Source of the DNA: Pyrinomonadaceae bacterium
GTDB lineage: Bacteria > Acidobacteriota > Blastocatellia > Pyrinomonadales > Pyrinomonadaceae
Direction of reading: 5' to 3'
Length of the DNA stretch: 64,000 nucleotides
NCBI GenBank assembly: GCA_021228405.1
Contig: JAJQRF010000001.1
Coordinates: 558,001-622,000, forward strand
The position numbers and the translations under genes are program-made. Positions 3,323 through 33,700 of this stretch are shown piece after piece. The notes under the pieces are model-generated. The model made no database searches, was not told where the DNA came from, and saw only the letters and a program-made list of their open reading frames with translations. Position 1 is the stretch's first letter. Every line of letters begins with the position of its first letter.

Positions 3323-4462
3323 TTAACGGGTTACAGGTCGGCGCGTAACCGATCGGCGCGATGCCGAAGCGAGTTTATCGCCGCCGCTTTGTGTCGTCCT
3401 TACTTCTTTTACTTTCGCCGCACCAAGCTTGTCCTGCCACCAAATTGCGATCGGGCTGGCAATCGCGATGGTCGAGTAGGTTCCCGTGATCGCACCGACA
3501 AATAGTGCGAGCGAGAATCCGCGCAAGACTTCGCCGCCGAATAAAACCAATGCCAGAACCGAGAGGAAAACAAGTCCGTTGGTCACGATCGTGCGCGACA
3601 TCGTCTGGTTAATGGAGTCGTTCGTCAGCTTATAAAGCGATTCGCCGCGATGGAGCGTCAAATTCTCACGGATACGGTCGAAGATAACGATCGAGTCGTT
3701 AACCGAGAATCCGACCAACGTTAAAAGTGCCGCCAAAACCGTCAGGCTGACTTCCCATTGGAAAACCGAGAAGAACGCAAGCGTAATCAAAACATCGTGG
3801 AAAACGGCGATAACCGCACCGGCGGCGTAGGTCCAGTCATAGCGGAACGCGATGAACAGCAGAATTCCGACCATTCCGAGCAAAGTGGCGATAACGGCTT
3901 GATTGCGGAGTTGCGCGCCTGCAACCGGACCGACCGAATCGGTTCCGACGATTTTATAAGCCGCCGATTCGTCTTCTGCTAAGGACTTTGTCGCTTCAGC
4001 CTCCTTGCCGAAAGTATCGAGTGCTTTTTTAACCGTTTCGCGTCCTTTGTTTACCTGTGTATTTTGATTTTCAGGAGAAAGCGCGGCAGGTTGATTTTGG
4101 GTATTGGCATTTACCGCAGGTTGATTTTCGGTCGCATTTTGTTCCACGTCGGAGAAAAGCGGAACTTTAATCAAAACTTCGTCCTGCTTATCGAGCGAAG
4201 CCTGAATCACAGGTTCCTGCACACCGGCATTGTTCAAAGCGGCGCGAATTTCGTCATCAGAGGGTTTTTGCTTAAATTTTGCCGTGACGACCGTTCCGCC
4301 CTGAAAATCGACTCCGAGATTGAAAGCGTTCGTTCCGCCCGGCGTAAGCTGACGACCGATCGCAGAAAACAAACCTGCCAAAAGGATCACGATGGACACC
4401 ATAATCAAAGGCTTGCGATAGCCCATCCAATCCACGTTAATATTCTTAAAAATTTCAAACAT
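3323..4462 (-). CDS. secF: Protein translocase subunit SecF
   Basis: 379 aa. With SecD it forms the proton-driven accessory complex that helps pull preproteins through SecYEG on the periplasmic side. First membrane helix is about residues 17-35; the P1-type motif LGVDFQGGT is at 49-57. Five C-terminal helices follow, with VNDSIVIFDRIRENL near residues 254-268 as the signature of transmembrane segment 4/5. Between residues about 105 and 140 the periplasmic domain carries an Asn/Gln-rich low-complexity insertion that makes it longer than E. coli SecF (about 320 aa). The C-terminal tail is Arg-rich. secD lies 65 nt upstream. Confidence 0.95.
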   Translation of the reverse strand: MFEIFKNINVDWMGYRKPLIMVSIVILLAGLFSAIGRQLTPGGTNAFNLGVDFQGGTVVTAKFKQKPSDDEIRAALNNAGVQEPVIQASLDKQDEVLIKVPLFSDVEQNATENQPAVNANTQNQPAALSPENQNTQVNKGRETVKKALDTFGKEAEATKSLAEDESAAYKIVGTDSVGPVAGAQLRNQAVIATLLGMVGILLFIAFRYDWTYAAGAVIAVFHDVLITLAFFSVFQWEVSLTVLAALLTLVGFSVNDSIVIFDRIRENLTLHRGESLYKLTNDSINQTMSRTIVTNGLVFLSVLALVLFGGEVLRGFSLALFVGAITGTYSTIAIASPIAIWWQDKLGAAKVKEVRTTQSGGDKLASASRRSVTRRPVTR

Positions 4463-4527: not shown

Positions 4528-6213
4528 TTAAATACTGAGTTTTTTCATTTCAGGATTGCGCTCAAGCAACCACATAAAGATCGTGCGCGACACGAAAACC
4601 GCTGAGAATAAGTTAATCAGCAATCCCAAAATCAAAGTTACGGCAAATCCGCGAATCGGTCCCGAACCATACATATAAAGAATTACCGCCGAAAGAATCG
4701 TCGTGATGTGCGTATCGATGATCGTAATGAACGCGCGGTCAAAGCCGATCTCGACGGATTTGGCGACCGTGTGTCCGGCGCGAAGTTCTTCACGCATTCT
4801 TTCAAAGATAAGCACGTTCGAGTCCACCGCCATTCCGATTCCGAGAATCAAACCGGCAATACCGGGCAAGGTCAGCGTCGAATCGACGACGATCAATGCC
4901 GCCATCGTCAGAAGCATATTCAGGATCAAGGCAACGACCGCATTTACGCCCGCACCGCGATAATAGAACAGCATAAAGATGATAACGAAAACCAATCCGC
5001 CGACCGAAGCCTGAACGCCGGCACGAATCGAATCAGCCCCGAGGCTCGGTCCGACCGTTCTTTCTTCCTGATATTCGATCTTCGCCGGAAGCGCGCCCGA
5101 TTTCAGCGTCAGAGCGAGATCGTCTGCGGTCGCTTTGGTAAATCTGCCGGAAATTTCGCCCGAATCGAAAATCTGCGATTTGATATATGCCGCCGATTTG
5201 ACTTCGTTGTTCAAAACGACCGCCATATAATTGTTGATATTTTTACCCGTCCATTCGCCGAATTTCTGTGCGCCGTTCGGTTTGAATGAAAAAGTGATCT
5301 GATAATCGCTTTCGTTTCCGGTGCGCGAAACGGCTGATGCGTCACGTAATTCGCTGCCGTCAACCACCGGCGGATATTCGACCACGACGAACTGTTTCGG
5401 CTTATCCTGCGGATTCTGCGGGTTTGCAGTCGGCGCGGCATCACGGTCTGCATAAAGCAAAACCTTGCGGTTTGTCGGAACGGTTCCGCCCAGAGATTGG
5501 CGCGCCGCTTCTTCGGTCGGGTATGTCTGAACAGGCGACGGGCTCGGCGGGCTGACGATTTTCATCAGCGCGAGATTCGATTCCGCACCGATTAATTGCT
5601 TAACGCGTTCGGGATCGTCAACACCGGGCATTTGTAAAAGAATTTGTCCCGAAGATTCGGCACCGTGTCTTTGCAGAGTCGGTTCTTTCACGCCGAAAGC
5701 GTTGATGCGGCTTTCGATGATCTTCAAAGCCTGTTCGACCGCCTGATTTTTCAGGGTCGTCTGAATCTGTCCGGGCAGTGACCACGAAACGACACTTCCG
5801 CTCGTGCTTTGAGTCCATTGCGAAAAATCGACCTTCTTTTTGACTTCATCGACCACGGCTTGCGCTTGCGAAGCGTCCGAAAGATTAAGCGTCACCGAAT
5901 AAGTTCCGCCGTCTGCAACGACCGCATTTCCCGTCACGGGCAACTTCGCGTCCTGTGCGGCGGTCAAAGCCGCCTGCGCGTTGTTTTCCGTCAGGGTTTT
6001 CAGATAATCGTCCGTTTTGACGCGCATCACGAGATGCGAACCGCCTTTCAGGTCAAGACCGAGATTGATGTTTTCGGCGAGATTATTTTTGATGCCCGTC
6101 CACGTAAAATCGCTTCCGACCGGCACTCTTCGAGGTCCGAAAACCAGATAAATTCCTACCAGCGTAATCACGATAATGATCGCTGTTCTAATCAACAAAC
6201 TGCTGTTTTTCAT
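4528..6213 (-). CDS. secD: Protein translocase subunit SecD
   Basis: 561 aa. Partner of SecF in the RND-like translocase motor. Membrane helix 1 at about residues 8-25, then NLGLDLKGGSHLVMRV (residues 50-65), the conserved D/LKGG motif at the start of the large periplasmic P1 domain. The head contains the usual IESRINAFGVKEP and ILLQMPGVDDPERVK motifs. The C-terminal block of five helices has ILGIGMAVDSNVLIFERMRE. The length is in the normal range for SecD of Gram-negative bacteria. It lies 63 nt downstream of yajC and is part of the tgt-yajC-secD-secF order well known from many genomes. Confidence 0.96.
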   Translation of the reverse strand: MKNSSLLIRTAIIIVITLVGIYLVFGPRRVPVGSDFTWTGIKNNLAENINLGLDLKGGSHLVMRVKTDDYLKTLTENNAQAALTAAQDAKLPVTGNAVVADGGTYSVTLNLSDASQAQAVVDEVKKKVDFSQWTQSTSGSVVSWSLPGQIQTTLKNQAVEQALKIIESRINAFGVKEPTLQRHGAESSGQILLQMPGVDDPERVKQLIGAESNLALMKIVSPPSPSPVQTYPTEEAARQSLGGTVPTNRKVLLYADRDAAPTANPQNPQDKPKQFVVVEYPPVVDGSELRDASAVSRTGNESDYQITFSFKPNGAQKFGEWTGKNINNYMAVVLNNEVKSAAYIKSQIFDSGEISGRFTKATADDLALTLKSGALPAKIEYQEERTVGPSLGADSIRAGVQASVGGLVFVIIFMLFYYRGAGVNAVVALILNMLLTMAALIVVDSTLTLPGIAGLILGIGMAVDSNVLIFERMREELRAGHTVAKSVEIGFDRAFITIIDTHITTILSAVILYMYGSGPIRGFAVTLILGLLINLFSAVFVSRTIFMWLLERNPEMKKLSI

Positions 6214-6276: not shown

Positions 6277-6588
6277 TTACTTCGTATCTTCCGCTTTTCT
6301 TCCGATCACGGCTTGCTTGCCGACTTCCAGAAAAGTCTTATCCGCACTTACAATTATGAAACTCGTTTCTCTGACTTCCTTAATTTTGCCGATGATGCCG
6401 CCGTTCGTCACGACTTCGTCGTTGATCTTGAGTTCGGCGATCATATCCTTTAACTGCTGCTGCTGTTTTTTTTGCGGCAGAATTACCAGAAAATAAAAGA
6501 TGGCGAAAATCGCGACAAAAGGAAGTAAAGTAAAAATCAAACTTCCGCCGCCGCCTTCGCCTTGCAAAAATAATAGAATTATAGTCAT
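6277..6588 (-). CDS. yajC: Preprotein translocase subunit YajC
   Basis: 103 aa. Small accessory membrane protein of the SecDF complex. It has one N-terminal membrane helix, about residues 17-40 (IFTLLPFVAIFAIFYFLVIL), immediately followed by the family hallmark PQKKQQQQLKDMIAELK. A short soluble domain with INDEVVTNGGIIGKIKEV follows and the tail is charged. The position between tgt and secD is the classic arrangement. Confidence 0.95.
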   Translation of the reverse strand: MTIILLFLQGEGGGGSLIFTLLPFVAIFAIFYFLVILPQKKQQQQLKDMIAELKINDEVVTNGGIIGKIKEVRETSFIIVSADKTFLEVGKQAVIGRKAEDTK

Positions 6589-6642: not shown

Positions 6643-8124
6643 TCAAACGTCTGTTTGCTCATTTTCCTGCAATTTTCTTAGAAAATCCTTTCTGAACTGA
6701 TTGAATCTGCCAAGTTTGATAGATTGCCTAACCTTTCGCATCGTGTCAAGGAAGAAAGCGAGATTGTGATGAGAAATCAGCATCGCCGCGAGCATTTCTC
6801 CCGTCTGATACAAATGACGAATATACGAACGCGAATATCTTCTGCAAACCGAGCACGGGCATTCTTCGTCCAGAGGCGCAGAATCACGCGCAAATTTCGC
6901 ATTTCTGATGTTGATCTTTCCGCGTGAAGTAAACGCACTTCCCGTCCGCCCGTTGCGCGTCGGCATCACGCAGTCAAACATATCCACGCCGCGATGAACC
7001 GCTTCGATCAAATCTTCGGGCGTTCCGACACCCATCAGATAACGCGGCGCGTCCTGCGGCATTTTATGCGCGAGAAATTCAAGCACTTCATACATCACCG
7101 ATTTTTCTTCGCCGACGCTCAAACCGCCGATCGCGTAGCCGTCAAACCCGATCTCGGTCGTCAATTCTAAACTTTGCCGACGCAGATCGAGATGTCCTGC
7201 GCCTTGAATAATGCCGAATAAAGCCTGCCGTCCGCTGAGTTCAACTGTCGACTGTTTTTCTTCAACTGTCAGTTGTTTTTTCATAGCTGACAGTTGTTTT
7301 TTCATAGCTGACAGTTGTTTTTTTGTATCTAACAGTTGTTTTTCCCGATCTATCAACTGTTTTTCTGTGTCTAACAGTTGTTTTTCTTCATCTGATAGTT
7401 GTTTTTTTGAATCTGTCGCCTGTTTTTCTCGATCTGTCAGTTGTTTTTTTCTGTCTGATAGTTGTTTTTCCGCATCTGACAATTGTTTTTCTCTGTCTGT
7501 CAGTTGTTTGTGCGCATCTGCTAACTGTTTTTGCGCTTCTGACAACGGATTTTCGATAAATCCCGTGTCCATTCCCGCGTCTTGCAGTTCATTGAAACGG
7601 TCTTTCGAGCGTTTTGCCCAACGTGCGGTCATTTCCAGACTCTTTTTCGTTTGCTCATAACCTGCGTCGCCCGGCGGACATTCGTCGAAAACCATCACGA
7701 TTTCCGAACCTAACGCGGCTTGTATTTCCATCGAAACTTCGGGCGAAAGAAACTTTTTACTGCCGTCGATGTGCGAACGAAATTCAACGCCTTCTTCGGT
7801 CAATTTTCGCAAATCCGTCAGCGAAAAAACCTGAAATCCGCCCGAATCCGTCAGAAGCGAACGATTCCACGTCGAGAATCGATGAAGTCCGCCCATTTCG
7901 CGGATTATCTCTGCCCCCGGACGCAAAAAAAGATGATACGTATTTCCGAGAATGATGCGCGCATCCATCTCGTCTTCGAGAAATTCGTAACGCACGCCTT
8001 TCACCGTGCCCTGCGTTCCGACCGGCATAAAAACAGGCGTTTCGATCACCGAACGCCGCGTCCGCAAAATTCCCGTCCGCGCTTCACCTTCCTGCGCGGT
8101 CACTGTCCATTCAATTGGCTGCAT
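6643..8124 (-). CDS. tgt: Queuine tRNA-ribosyltransferase with an internal heptad-repeat insertion
   Basis: 493 aa from ATG 8124 (MQPIEWTV); an in-frame TTG lies 9 nt upstream. Exchanges the wobble guanine of GUN tRNAs (Asp, Asn, His, Tyr) for preQ1. Seen: LLTDSGGFQVFSL with the general-base Asp, DMFDCVMPTRNGR with the nucleophile Asp, and a zinc site CPCSVC plus the later ISHHN histidine. Usual length is about 375 aa. The excess is about 100 residues at about 194-296, between the KDRFNEL helix and ALFGIIQGA, made of roughly 14 heptads of the type EKQLSDR. All catalytic and zinc residues are kept, so the enzyme is probably active with a long charged helix protruding. No Shine-Dalgarno is seen; the leader is the AATTCGTA repeat. 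Confidence 0.93.
   Translation of the reverse strand: MQPIEWTVTAQEGEARTGILRTRRSVIETPVFMPVGTQGTVKGVRYEFLEDEMDARIILGNTYHLFLRPGAEIIREMGGLHRFSTWNRSLLTDSGGFQVFSLTDLRKLTEEGVEFRSHIDGSKKFLSPEVSMEIQAALGSEIVMVFDECPPGDAGYEQTKKSLEMTARWAKRSKDRFNELQDAGMDTGFIENPLSEAQKQLADAHKQLTDREKQLSDAEKQLSDRKKQLTDREKQATDSKKQLSDEEKQLLDTEKQLIDREKQLLDTKKQLSAMKKQLSAMKKQLTVEEKQSTVELSGRQALFGIIQGAGHLDLRRQSLELTTEIGFDGYAIGGLSVGEEKSVMYEVLEFLAHKMPQDAPRYLMGVGTPEDLIEAVHRGVDMFDCVMPTRNGRTGSAFTSRGKINIRNAKFARDSAPLDEECPCSVCRRYSRSYIRHLYQTGEMLAAMLISHHNLAFFLDTMRKVRQSIKLGRFNQFRKDFLRKLQENEQTDV
7240..7539 (-). repeat. In-frame 21-bp tandem array inside tgt (about 14 units)
   Basis: The plus strand shows CAGTTGTTTTT recurring every 21 bp, with a variable 10-bp remainder. 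In some units the core is CAACTG, the reverse complement. The junction CAACTGTCAGTTG near 7266-7278 is a local dyad. On the coding strand each unit is one heptad (K-Q-L-x-D-x-E). Two neighbouring units near 7275-7316 are identical, which indicates recent duplication. Confidence 0.9.
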
Positions 8125-8130
8125 TTGTTT

Positions 8131-8166
8131 CAATTACGAATTACGAATTACGAATTACGAAATTCA
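8131..8166 (+). repeat. AATTACGA tandem repeat (left flank of four-helix gene)
   Basis: Four consecutive AATTACGA units at 8132-8163, ending AATTCAT. The repeat ends 7 nt from the tgt start codon, so it forms the whole tgt leader. The inverted counterpart lies at 8552-8590. Confidence 0.8.
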
Positions 8167-8196
8167 TTTTATAAATTGTGAAATTCAAATTATTAA

Positions 8197-8550
8197 TTAC
8201 GAGTTAGCTTTTGTTGTAATTTGAATTTTGCCGATAATTTTTAGAATTTCCTCCAGATCGGCTAATAAACTGTTTGCTTGTGTTTCGTCAAAATAATCGG
8301 TTGCTCTGAGTAATCTTATCCAATATTTTGTTTCTCTAGCTTCTTTATAAGCAATGCTCAATTTTGCGATAAAATCGGCTTTTGACTGTCCTCCGACGGA
8401 TTCTTCGACATTCGCGCCGATAGATGTTCCACTTCTCAAAAACTGCTTTGAAATTACGAATTCCTTCTTTTCTTCGACCAAATATTTGTAAGCCTTCACG
8501 ACACGAATAGCAAAAGCAAAACTTTTGTCAAGTAAAACATTATCCTTCAT
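8197..8550 (-). CDS. Four-helix bundle protein (S23/IVP family)
   Basis: 117 aa. Matches the free-standing four-helix-bundle family named after proteins encoded in 23S rRNA intervening sequences. Typical segments are AFAIRVVKAYKYL, KQFLRSGTSIGANVEESVGG and FIAKLSIAYKEARETKYWIRLL. The cellular role of the family is not established. The ATG (8550) directly follows an AT-rich repeat and no Shine-Dalgarno is visible. The gene sits between tgt and the redoxin gene and is flanked by inverted copies of the same AATTCGTA-type repeat, so it looks like a small inserted cassette rather than a member of the neighbouring operons. Confidence 0.85.
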   Translation of the reverse strand: MKDNVLLDKSFAFAIRVVKAYKYLVEEKKEFVISKQFLRSGTSIGANVEESVGGQSKADFIAKLSIAYKEARETKYWIRLLRATDYFDETQANSLLADLEEILKIIGKIQITTKANS

Positions 8551-8551
8551 A

Positions 8552-8590
8552 TAATTCGTAATTCGTAATTTGAAATTCGTAATTGACTAC
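8552..8590 (-). repeat. AATTCGTA repeat (right flank, inverted relative to 8131-8166)
   Basis: Reads TAATTCGTAATTCGTAATT then TGAAATTCGTAATTG, the reverse complement of the repeat on the other side of the four-helix gene. It overlaps the stop codon of the downstream redoxin gene (8587-8589). Confidence 0.75.
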
Positions 8591-14466: not shown

Positions 14467-15177
14467 TTATTGAAACTGGTAGGAGATGAAGACGTTGAGC
14501 GCGCCGTTTGCGATTTCGTGGCGCATCCCGACGGCTTTCATTTTTAAGGTTGCGGAGTTTTGCACGGGCACGGCGAACGAAACTTTGTCCATCTGGAGAA
14601 TCTGAAGAGGATTTATCTTTTTGTCGATGGAATTTTGCACCAGTTTCGTGACCAGACCGCTCCCGATCCCGCCCGTTCCGCTTAACTGAACGTTCGTAAC
14701 TTTGGCGCGACCGACCAGACTTTGCTTTTCGTTATCGAATTCGAGCGTGATGATCGATTCCGCCCAGCCCGAAAATTCGATACAGCCGATGAACGGCGGG
14801 TTGTAATTGCCGCGAAACGCGATCGGCGCGTAAATCTGCCCGTCGCGGAAACGGACGGCAGTTCTCACGCCGTCGATCTCGCGTTGTAATTTGATCGACT
14901 CGTCACAGTAATTTTGGATTTTGGATTTTGGATTTTGGATTTTATTTTCTTCGTTAAAACTAACCTTTGCGAAAACGTTCTCCCCGTCACCTTTTCCCCC
15001 TTTGACACCTTCGTCTTTCAATGCCAACGGAAATTTCGGTTCGCCCGCCTTAAAAAGCGCGTCGAGAAGCGAATCGAAAAACTGTTCATTCAAAGAGATC
15101 ATCACCTCCGCCTGCTGTGCCTTTGAAACCGACGCACACAGCACCAACGCCAACACCAAAACCGCCATTTTTTTCAT
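14467..15177 (-). CDS. Secreted protein of unknown function with an in-frame repeat insertion
   Basis: 236 aa. Signal peptide MAVLVLALVLCASVSKA is followed by QQAEVMISLNEQFFDSLLDALF. The rest is a beta-rich domain in which residues about 95-236 alternate strands (VRFRDGQIYAPIAFRGNY, GCIEFSGWAESIITLEFD). The pattern (membrane-facing strands, conserved CDES and SLVGRAKVTNVQL) suggests an envelope lipid-binding or LPS-type scaffold, but I recognise no family with certainty. Residues about 79-89 (KIQNPKSKIQN) come from an inserted DNA repeat; the same peptide occurs in the alpha-2-macroglobulin gene. Confidence 0.7.
   Translation of the reverse strand: MKKMAVLVLALVLCASVSKAQQAEVMISLNEQFFDSLLDALFKAGEPKFPLALKDEGVKGGKGDGENVFAKVSFNEENKIQNPKSKIQNYCDESIKLQREIDGVRTAVRFRDGQIYAPIAFRGNYNPPFIGCIEFSGWAESIITLEFDNEKQSLVGRAKVTNVQLSGTGGIGSGLVTKLVQNSIDKKINPLQILQMDKVSFAVPVQNSATLKMKAVGMRHEIANGALNVFISYQFQ
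14911..14943 (-). repeat. TTTTGGA repeat inside a coding sequence
   Basis: Four GGATTTT-type units in 33 bp; on the coding strand they give the peptide NPKSKIQN. They keep the reading frame of the surrounding gene. Confidence 0.8.
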
Positions 15178-15282: not shown

Positions 15283-15639
15283 CTTCGAGTTGCTTGCCAA
15301 CTATTCCGAGTTACGTTTCAACTACTTCGAGTTGCTTGTCAACTACTCCGAGTTGCTTGTCAACTCCTTCGAGTTACGTTTTAACTATTTCGAGTTGCTT
15401 GCCAACTACTTTGAGTTACGTTTCAACGCCTTTGAGTTAGCTTTCAACGCCTTTGAGTTGCGATTTAACCCGTTCAAGTCAGCTTTCAACCCGTTCAAGT
15501 AGGCTTTCCGCGTATTCAAGTTGCGTTTTCACCCGTTCGAGTGACGATTTAACGCCTTCGAGTCGAAAAATAACCCGTTTGAGTAGCGTTTCAACCGATT
15601 CGAGTAGGCTTTCAATGCGTTCGAGTAATGATTCCGCGC
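15283..15639. repeat. Tandem array of 17 units, exactly 21 bp each
   Basis: Every unit has the shape CTTCGAGTTGCTTG..CAACT, with AGTTG and CAACT able to pair inside the unit. The first nine units are well conserved; the last eight drift (GTTCAAGTAGGCTTT.., GTTCGAGTAATGATT..), yet there is no insertion or deletion across 357 bp. Confidence 0.95.
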
Positions 15640-15696
15640 TTCGTGGAAAGACTGTTTATGAGCTTTGGAAAATAAACCTAACAATAAGTTCTGAAA

Positions 15697-15866
15697 GGGC
15701 TTTGCCCGCTGATGTGCGGAAAGGCTTTGCCCGCTGATATACGGAAAGGCTTTGCCCGCTGATATGCGGAAAGGGCTTTGCCCGCTGATATGCGGAAAGG
15801 GCTTTGCCCGCTGATATGCGGAAAGGGCTTTGCCCGCTGATGTGCGGAAAGGCTTTGCCTTTCCGT
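15697..15866. repeat. Tandem palindromic repeat, 25-26 bp unit, about six and a half copies
   Basis: Units contain GGGCTTTGCCC (a dyad) followed by GCTGATATGCGGAAA. Length alternates between 25 and 26 bp through one G. The last partial unit ends GGCTTTGCCTTTCCG, which is itself palindromic with GGCAAAGCC later at 15950. Confidence 0.9.
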
Positions 15867-30700: not shown

Positions 30701-33700
30701 GCGTTTCGGCGGCGTTTTACCGCCCGCAACCCAGATCGTGATCTCGGTTTCGTTCAAACGTTCGCGGTCGTCCATCACTTTCGCGGTGATGGTGTAGCGT
30801 CCGCCCTGTTTGGCGACGAACGAACATTTTTGCGCTTCATTAGCTGATTTCACTTCGCAAAGCTGTTCGTCGAGCGTGACTTCCTTCCAGCTTCCTTTTT
30901 CAAACGCCCAATCCTTCAAAACTGCTTTGATTTCGATGTCTTGTCCCGCAACGAGTTTTCCGTCGATGTCGGAAACAATCGTTTCGAGATTGATATTTTC
31001 GCCTTTATTGACGAAATATCTGTCCATTTTCAAACCGACATAGAGCGACGAAGGATGGACGAGCAGATTTGTCGTGGAAGACCAAGTTTGACGGTTTACG
31101 TCCTGAACCGCCGCCGAAGCCGAAACCGAAAAGGGGCGCGCCGGACTGACCGATTCAAAATCGATCTTCAAAATGTGTTTTCCGCCCGCATCGGTCACGC
31201 CTTTGAAGGTTTGCGTGTTGCCGCCGTAATAATCGCCGTCATAACCGCCGCGCCACCACGGAACCCAGGTTCCGAACGTAAAATCTCCGCGATTCGGCGG
31301 CGTATAATTCGTCGGCGTGGCGCGAACCGTCCAGTTTACATCGGCGTTCGCCAGTCCGCCGCCCGCGTAATATTTCGCTTCGACCGAAACGTTCGCCGAT
31401 TGTTTGACGAAATACGGTGCTTCGGTTTCATTTTTTGCCGATACTTCAAATTCGGGACGGCGAAATTCCTGAATCTGGAAACCGTGCGAAGTCGTCGCAC
31501 CCGAAATCGATGAAGTCGTCGAAATATCGACTCGCGAGTAACCGAGATTGGCATTGTCGGGAAGTTTGAATTTGAAATCGAATGCGCCGAAAGCGTTCAG
31601 ATTTCCCTTTCCGTTCGCAATTTCGTTGTTGCGCGAATCGTAAACTTTATAACTGAATCCCGTCGCCGAATCGCCCAAACCTTCGACATCGCCGAATTTT
31701 CCGGCAGTGATCTTGCGAATGTAGCCCTTGATCGTCACTTCTTCCTTCGGGCGATACATTCCGCGATCATCGAAAACCTGCCAGCGCAGATACGGCGCGT
31801 AGCCCTGTTTATACCAGGTTCCGCCTTCCTGCCAGTAATAATCGGTATTTTCGGGCAAGAATGCGACATCGTTGCCGCGTTTGGCAATCAGCATATTCGG
31901 CTGATTTGCCGCCGTCGGAGGCAGTGAAAGCCGCAAAATTCCGTTTTCGCCCGTGCGGTTCGTCTGCGCTTCTTCGATGGTTTCCGCTTCCGAAGTTTCA
32001 CCGTTTTCGTCAACCGTTTCGACTTCCTTGATCGACTCTTCCGAACTTCCCCAACTTGTCAGCCATTCCCACCAACTCGATTTCGGATTTTGGATTTCGG
32101 ATTGCGGATTATTTTCAGCGACGGCTTTTCCGTTCGGATAGATCGAAAGGTCAACGCCCGAAAGCGGTTTTCCCGTTTTCAGGTCGGTCGCCCAACCGAC
32201 CAATTCTTCATTATCAACAAACGCATCGAGTCCGATCTGTGTCGATTGAATCCACGTAAAGATGCGTGTCCGGTCGTATTTATCGCGTTTGACGGTCGGT
32301 TCGATGTCAACGATGACGCTTCCGAAACCGCCGTTTAGAGCTTCCGAAAGATCAATGCGCGTTTCGACCATTTCATCCGTTTTTGAAGCGATGGGCACGA
32401 CTTTATCGGAAACCAGTCTGCCCGGAATCGTCGGTCTTTTTGTGCTGTCGTCATAGTTTATCCGGCGTAAATATTCCTGAAACTGTTTCCAGTTTTGCGG
32501 TTGGACAGCGTAAAGACGCACCTTGACGCTGTTGTGATTGGTCGAAAAGATCGAAAAATTCGGTTTTGCGGTCGGGTCGATCAAAACCATATTTCCGCCT
32601 TGTGTGTAAAGGTTTTGATCGGCTTTTCCGACCTTGATGCTGGCAACGACAGGTTGTCCGAGCTTTTGCCCGTAAATATCCTGCAATTCGCCGTCAACCG
32701 TGACTTTATAAGTCGTGCTTCCTTTTTTGTAGCCTGTAATGTAGATGTAATTTCCGCTCGGATAAATGTTCAAACCTTCGACGGCGGGCTCGATCTTGAC
32801 CATTTCCTTGGCAAATTTGCTTGCATCGATCGCGTTGTTAAATTCCAAATACCACGACTCGAAAGGCGAACAATTTTTATTTTCGCGCCAGCCGCAATAT
32901 CCGCCCGAAAATTTGAAAGGGCTGTAAGTTTGAAAATTAAAAACCTGCGGCGCGGTCGTCGTCAAAGGACCTTCGGCGGACGGCGTTCCTTTATCGACTA
33001 CGACCGAGATCGCGCTCGCGCCGGGCAGAGCGTTTTCGGTCAGACCATCGGAATTTAAAGCGCGAAAAGCCAGCCAACGTCCGGGCTGTGCCTGTTTTGC
33101 GTAATATGAAATACTGCCGTCTTTGTCGATCTCTTCCTGCGTAGCCAGCCGAATCGGGACCGTCTTCCCGCCGCCCGAAACTTTGATGAACTTGATAACT
33201 TCCTGCGGATTAATCGCCTGATCGAACGAAAGATACATCAACACGTCGCGCCGTGTGATCTGCCCGTTCGGAATCATCGTTTCGACCTTCGGCGGCGGCG
33301 TGGTAAATGTCCACGTGAAATCTTTTTGCAAAACCTGTCCGGTCGCGGATTTCGTTCCCGCCGGAATCTTTACCGTGAATTTCGTCGCCATCGGGAAACG
33401 GTTTTTCGTGTCGAACATCAGCGTTTTCGTGCCGAGCCAACGCCATTTTCCCTCGACCTGCGGCGACATTTGAACGGGAACGGTTTCGGAAGCTTGTTCC
33501 TGCGAAGTGACGGCGACCATCGGCTGTGAAAATGTCACGGTCAGATCGGGCGCGAGCTTGACTTCGCCTTCGGGCGAAAAACGCACAATTTCCAGAGCCT
33601 GTTTTGAATTATCGTAATTCGGTAAAGCGCGTTGTTCGTCCGCCGGAAATTTTACGGGAATCTTTTCGCCCGTTTTCGGTGCGGGCAGACTTCCGGCGCG

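Follow-up and report, generated by a model that had tools for sequence, protein, structure and literature searches.

In a bacterium of the family Pyrinomonadaceae, the gene for tRNA guanosine(34) transglycosylase (Tgt) carries within its reading frame an array of 21-bp tandem repeats that is read as heptads. This raises the question of whether the additional peptide is a working part of the enzyme, or repetitive DNA that the enzyme carries along. The locus lies in a stretch of 64,000 nucleotides (the window), for which a sequence-only reading had proposed that the heptads form a single long helix protruding from the barrel.

The tgt gene and its array

On the minus strand of the window, the gene belongs to the run tgt-yajC-secD-secF:

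6643..8124, minus strand: tgt, tRNA guanosine(34) transglycosylase, 493 aa including the insert (profile match and relatives' alignment)
6277..6588, minus strand: yajC, directly after tgt
4528..6213, minus strand: secD
3323..4462, minus strand: secF

The start of tgt was placed at the ATG at 8124 according to the starts of relatives, which gives a protein of 493 aa rather than 496 aa. The 496-aa version scored 509.2 bits against TIGR00430, where the cut-off is 306.75, and Tgt matched PF01702 with 515.1 bits (cut-off 26.3). With these scores and a frame that is unbroken across the array, the protein is indeed the otherwise complete Tgt with a heptad insertion that had been described from the sequence. 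It had also been claimed that the catalytic and zinc residues are intact, and residues D102, D280, C318, C320, C323, and H349 of Z. mobilis TGT (1ozm) all have identical counterparts in the aligned protein; the first two we take to be the catalytic Asp pair and the other four the zinc ligands (Z. mobilis TGT numbering). The five other matches of Tgt in its own genome are each confined to the repeat and, therefore, tgt is the sole Tgt gene found there. The genome also has one copy of queA, the queuosine pathway partner of tgt, and the protein presumably retains Tgt activity, that is, base exchange in the queuosine pathway.

The array itself was delimited as follows:

7234..7548, minus strand: in-frame tandem array of 21-bp units, 15 in number if the degenerate ends are counted (repeat finding and unit alignment)
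7275..7316, minus strand: two neighbouring 21-bp units, identical

Its core is CARYTGWCAGAYnnnGAAAAA, which encodes EKQLSDR-like heptads, and Tandem Repeats Finder reports it in rows with scores of 141-245 plus a partial row of 51. The units are spaced exactly 21 bp throughout and translate as Q-L-S/T-D-x-E/K-K heptads with zero stops, the Leu position being occupied by Leu in 13 of the 15 and by Ala and Ser in the remainder. Both the heptad array and the pair of adjacent identical DNA units noted in the sequence-only reading were thus recovered. The insertion point lies between the residues of Tgt that align to residues 190 and 191 of Z. mobilis TGT. No Rfam family matched over the array at gathering score, and the whole window gave two tRNAs only.

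Predicted structure of the arm

An AlphaFold2 model of Tgt, obtained with an alignment of 33 Tgts as input, has a mean pLDDT of 89.6 and a pTM of 0.78, and its core matches Z. mobilis TGT in Foldseek with a TM-score of 0.97 by target length. In this model the insert forms an antiparallel hairpin of two helices (194-238 and 243-292) with a short turn between them, with low confidence at 189-193 and 292-295. Repetitive helical sequences are often given high confidence in structure prediction and, for this reason, the hairpin stays a prediction only. The site points in the same direction: given that the residues on either side of the insert are adjacent in Z. mobilis TGT, its two ends are expected to be near each other, and it is difficult to see how one helix of some 100 residues would connect them. 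The helical protrusion proposed earlier is, therefore, also predicted by AlphaFold2, while the single long helix is supported neither by the model, in which two helices fold back on each other, nor by the geometry of the site. The arm is predicted to be a two-helix antiparallel hairpin rather than one helix.

The same repeat outside tgt

The 21-bp unit in tgt belongs to a DNA repeat family that also occurs outside genes. It recurs at two other places of the genome, G000:C9:117546 and G000:C7:861171, where no gene was recognised. At the former, the frame equivalent to that of Tgt is closed by stops on both sides, and the opposite strand has a TTG-started ORF of 165 aa that covers the array and is a candidate only. 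The latter contains stops and a frame break; its beginning overlaps the final codons of an upstream ORF, one with a zinc- or iron-chelating domain, and a topoisomerase ORF follows it.

When the 119 genomes of the family were searched with the DNA of the tgt array, with six candidates at most scored per genome, matches were obtained in at least four: the genome itself, G029, G034, and G020, the last with 29 bp only. In G034, which belongs to another genus, the array is noncoding, lying between ORFs with a longest open stretch of 87 aa over it. In G029, also of another genus, the arrays are overlapped by open stretches that reach 612 aa (C101) and 262 aa (C80), and may be translated too, which slightly lowers the confidence in reading the tgt insert as a stowaway. 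On average, units share an identity of 0.70 within the Tgt array, of 0.69 between Tgt and each of the two other arrays of its genome, and of 0.61-0.62 between Tgt and the arrays of other genera, values whose spread is narrowed by the choice of units according to their similarity to a consensus.

A Y1 transposase beside L002, an array of the same family outside tgt, was considered as a partner of the arrays and dismissed, given that tblastn with this protein, which divergent copies could escape, found no second one near the arrays searched.

Abundance of 21-bp arrays

The frequency of such arrays was estimated in 804 kb of the genome not chosen for arrays (the window and 37 stretches of 20 kb), counting as long clusters the tandem clusters of about 100 bp or more with a period of 9 or more. 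There are 27 long clusters in this sample, and period 21 is the commonest, with 11 of the 27; a period of 42, built from 21-bp units, is found in two more, and one of 19 or 20 in four. For comparison, 73 loci outside the family, a non-random sample retrieved around Tgt and amounting to 1.33 Mb, hold 33 long clusters; period 42 occurs in four of them and period 21 in none. In 0.10 Mb from seven loci of the family there are two long clusters, and neither has period 21. When clusters of any length are considered, period 21 is found 20 times in the 804 kb versus 8 times in the 1.33 Mb from outside. Extrapolation from the 13 arrays in 804 kb gives about 90 per genome, and the sequence of the unit differs between most array loci. 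Two of these arrays are found in the window:

15283..15627, plus strand: 21-bp array built from another unit (CTTCGAGTTGCTTGTCAACTA), most of it free of called ORFs of at least 100 aa
40809..41039, plus strand: 21-bp array built from yet another unit, a palindromic one (TAGGT-N7-ACCTA), most of it free of called ORFs of at least 100 aa

A Pfam scan of the seven ORFs that overlap sampled arrays gave no match at the curated cut-off; the ORF at L151:16230-16829 has coiled-coil matches below threshold. The array at L150:630-756 is in frame within an ORF of 252 aa, where it is read as HSQILDK heptads. A preference of the arrays for gene ends was dropped, because the crude gene calls are confounded by spurious ORFs.

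In relatives, arrays with period 21 and a length of about 100 bp or more number three in 180 kb of G034, one in 80 kb of G033, and four in 80 kb of G029, counts that come in part from contigs already known to hold a match. None was found in 60 kb of G111, nor in 400 kb taken together from G007, G112, G118, G056, and G020.

Repeats of other kinds were also observed. A 26-bp tandem repeat with 95% matches lies at 15693-15859. The heptamer run ATTTTGG at 14911-14943 falls within an ORF without Pfam match (14467-15177), and is a second repeat read inside an ORF. The run GATTTCG at 32079-32110 lies inside a 2088-aa alpha-2-macroglobulin ORF, and GACTCAG at L144:665-696 in a probable mfd ORF of 1214 aa with TRCF and UvrB-interaction domains.

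The Tgt loop in relatives

A Tgt match was present in 111 genomes of the family; 90 loci were examined and 87 parsed (G034, G115, and G108 were unparsed), the loop being measured between the W in the helix and the QG in the strand. The loop usually has 40-41 residues. It is enlarged to 48 or more in 24 of the 87, including the Tgt studied here, where it reaches 141 residues, and the heptad array is absent from all 86 other parsed Tgts.

By eye, the inserts of the relatives differ in kind. Inverted GTCAGAACC-type elements, which are dispersed in the genomes concerned, occupy the loops of G030 and G053, with variants in G032 and G055; inverted heptamer runs are seen in G047, G074, G018, G031, and G013, and CCCCTCC...GGAGGGG palindromes in G005 and G050, besides further kinds. 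All five inserts that were searched in their own genomes recur there, with 92 matches for G030, 11 for G047, 42 for G048, 20 for G018, and 32 for G005; these numbers include the Tgt copy, both strands in the case of palindromes, and many partial matches, and are lower bounds where 40 candidates were scored. Several enlarged loops have no obvious repeat (G089, G090, G091, G094, G080, G081, and G075). Outside the family, where six loci were unparsed, the stretch counted from the preceding R comprises 24-27 residues in most parsed loci, and is longer (30-54 residues) in four Acidobacteriota (L066, L067, L106, and L117). The Tgt loop is a recurrent landing site for unrelated repeat DNA.

Origin and status of the arm

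It is quite probable that the insert in tgt is a DNA repeat array tolerated in frame as a stowaway, with the arm most likely being a passenger. A degenerate 21-bp repeat would have lodged, or would have been seeded and have grown, in a permissive surface loop. With a unit length divisible by 3 and few stops in one of its frames, such a repeat is read through as heptads and adds about 100 residues, which would fold back as an antiparallel two-helix arm. With the ends of the arm meeting, the barrel, the active site, and the zinc site would be left alone. Selection would hold the frame of tgt open, given that the gene is single-copy and that its partner queA is present, while the arm itself would be tolerated. 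We infer both the insertion event and the neutrality of the arm. The occurrence of the repeat outside genes, together with the filling of the same loop by other repeats in relatives, makes the arm more likely a passenger than a designed part; the confidence with which it is predicted, as for a useful part, counts against a passenger. For the roles that the sequence-only reading had suggested, namely dimer spacing, tRNA recruitment, or membrane contact, no evidence was found.

The array may also have begun as a DNA repeat and have given rise to an arm that is now selected and contacts the tRNA, the ribosome, or a partner. This is unlikely, although the confidently predicted helical hairpin would agree with it. 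A working arm is expected to vary most at third codon positions, and there is no such excess: variability at positions 1, 2, and 3 is 0.36, 0.31, and 0.30 for the Tgt units (14 of the 15 were taken for this count and for that of stops and frame breaks, with the first or the last dropped), much as in copies outside genes (0.34, 0.29, and 0.36 in L002; 0.39, 0.25, and 0.33 in the six units of L003). Synonymous changes make up a share of 0.27 of the codon differences in Tgt, 0.22 in L002, and 0.23 in L003. In a second count, which dropped one duplicate Tgt unit and the stop-bearing units of L003, the share was 0.30 for the 13 distinct Tgt units versus 0.19 for 20 units of L002 and L003. This gap is reached by 30 of 500 label permutations, and weak selection at the protein level on the arm is thus possible. 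The open frame also speaks for selection, since neither a stop nor a frame break occurs in 14 units of the Tgt array, while a stop-bearing unit is present in four of the five related arrays outside tgt (all except L002) and a frame-breaking step likewise in four (all except G034). Given that L002 shows no stop in 12 units, this is weak evidence. Against a selected arm stand also its single Leu per heptad, the lack of the array in the other parsed Tgts of the family, and the unrelated peptides that occupy the same site in relatives.

Less probable is a role of the array as DNA or RNA, such as a hairpin barrier or an mRNA processing signal, with its translation being incidental. Folding of the + strand was compared for 19 arrays with 150 controls, either column-permuted or shuffled within columns, the latter of which removes covariation. 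The folding of 10 of the 19 arrays, Tgt included (2/150), is more stable than that of all but at most 2 of the 150 column-permuted controls. The other nine miss this level: L037 (5/150) and L147 (7/150) are intermediate, and seven have no signal (window 15283, L003, L006, L045:5180, L150:629, L151, and L144). Five of the 19 beat the within-column shuffles at 3/150 or fewer (window 40790, L002, L045:18491, L150:18886, and L158). The Tgt array is not among these, as no significant covariation was found on its + strand (18/150), which argues against such a role.

It is less probable still that the heptads arose inside tgt by slippage and were then copied outwards. The two identical adjacent units and a period that is a multiple of 3 would suit this origin, but arrays of the family elsewhere, in this genome and in other genera, are equally diverse in their units, and other 21-bp arrays with different units lie outside recognised genes. 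Moreover, none of 27 aligned relatives has a heptad seed, and G029 and G034 carry the repeat family yet have no array in tgt. An assembly artefact is hardly credible: tandem repeats are usual sites of misassembly, but here the units are degenerate, their spacing is exactly 21 bp, the frame is open, and the array sits inside a contig of 1.19 Mb.

Growth of the arrays

In the tgt array, which the sequence-only reading took to be still changing, neighbouring units are not more alike than distant ones, the observed value being reached in 394 of 1000 permutations. Local slippage was rejected as the main mode of growth, given that 13 of 16 arrays show no greater likeness between neighbours than chance at the level of 50/1000; such likeness does hold in window 15283 (16/1000), L006 (41/1000), and L147 (1/1000). 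The transfer of multi-unit blocks between arrays was also discarded, as no register stands out.

Two other observations were made on array structure. At L158:13948-14128, two units alternate and neighbours are partly reverse-complementary, which leads to a period of 42 bp, with an even-lag excess that is reached in 1 of 1000 permutations. The younger arrays of G029 (L262:5167-5402 and L261:6920-7219) seem, by eye, to swap short blocks rather than to gather scattered substitutions; in L262 the variants at one place are CTCC, TCGT, or ATGC.

More speculatively, part of the Pyrinomonadaceae might possess a so far undescribed class of arrays, often rich in hairpins and mostly of period 21, with the abundance extrapolated above and most loci having their own unit. 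These arrays would seem to come from one dedicated copying process that occasionally writes into genes such as tgt. A single process is suggested by units that differ as much within as between arrays, in the one family tested, and by the block swaps seen by eye. We know of no mechanism that favours period 21 while the unit varies by locus.

Comparison with known repeats

Coding minisatellites, or VNTRs, are tandem units of tens of bp that stand in frame in a gene, and the tgt units resemble them in both respects. They differ in that the unit family is shared with other places, with a diversity within the array equal to that between the arrays of the genome, and in that neighbouring units are not more alike; this comparison covers one genome of the genus.

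The palindromic elements of Rickettsia are described as dispersed DNA of about 150 bp, in ten families, that is found in frame in conserved genes and adds a peptide to a host protein that is otherwise complete (PMC10969869). The tgt repeat is alike in being dispersed, with three places in its own genome besides those in G029 and G034, and in standing in frame in a conserved gene. It differs in being a tandem array of 21-bp units, not a single element of about 150 bp, and in that one Tgt loop collects several unrelated kinds of repeat. On our best reading, the tgt insert would be comparable to the Rickettsia elements, but built as a tandem array.

PARCEL repeats likewise are DNA repeats in tandem that have dyad symmetry, code for amphipathic repeats, and are presumed to spread in genomes; their units encode 25 residues, and the ORFs concerned have no assigned function (PMC2996958). 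By contrast, the tgt units encode 7 residues and their host is a known enzyme, while the sampled 21-bp arrays are mostly outside recognised genes. The inverted GTCAGAACC-type ends in the loop elements of relatives recall REPINs and REP sequences; the array in tgt is tandem, and the form with two inverted REPs around a spacer is found only in inserts of relatives. Heptanucleotide repeats are reported to be the commonest repeat class in many bacteria (PMC4679880). Among the matches listed in the literature search, there was nothing on 21-bp arrays in Pyrinomonadaceae or on inserts in Tgt.

A loop with repeated uptake offers a set of natural variants in which to study how large a foreign peptide can be tolerated by a TIM-barrel enzyme, and at what point a passenger turns into a part. 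Given that a heptad pattern resembling a coiled coil can stem from the period of the DNA alone, caution is needed when inferring a function for such inserts. The insert in tgt also points to the 21-bp arrays as a class.

A neighbouring element

Next to tgt, at 8132-8584, inverted heptamer arrays (AATTACG and CGTAATT) flank a gene for a 23S rRNA intervening-sequence protein (PF05635, 8197-8550). The four copies of this gene in the genome look heptamer-flanked by eye, each with its own heptamer. Of 33 loci, 26 are long enough to test, and 18 of these have an inverted match of at least 12 bp between their flanks, versus 1 of 104 control positions. Three of the four copies of the genome have such a match; at L265 it has 11 bp.
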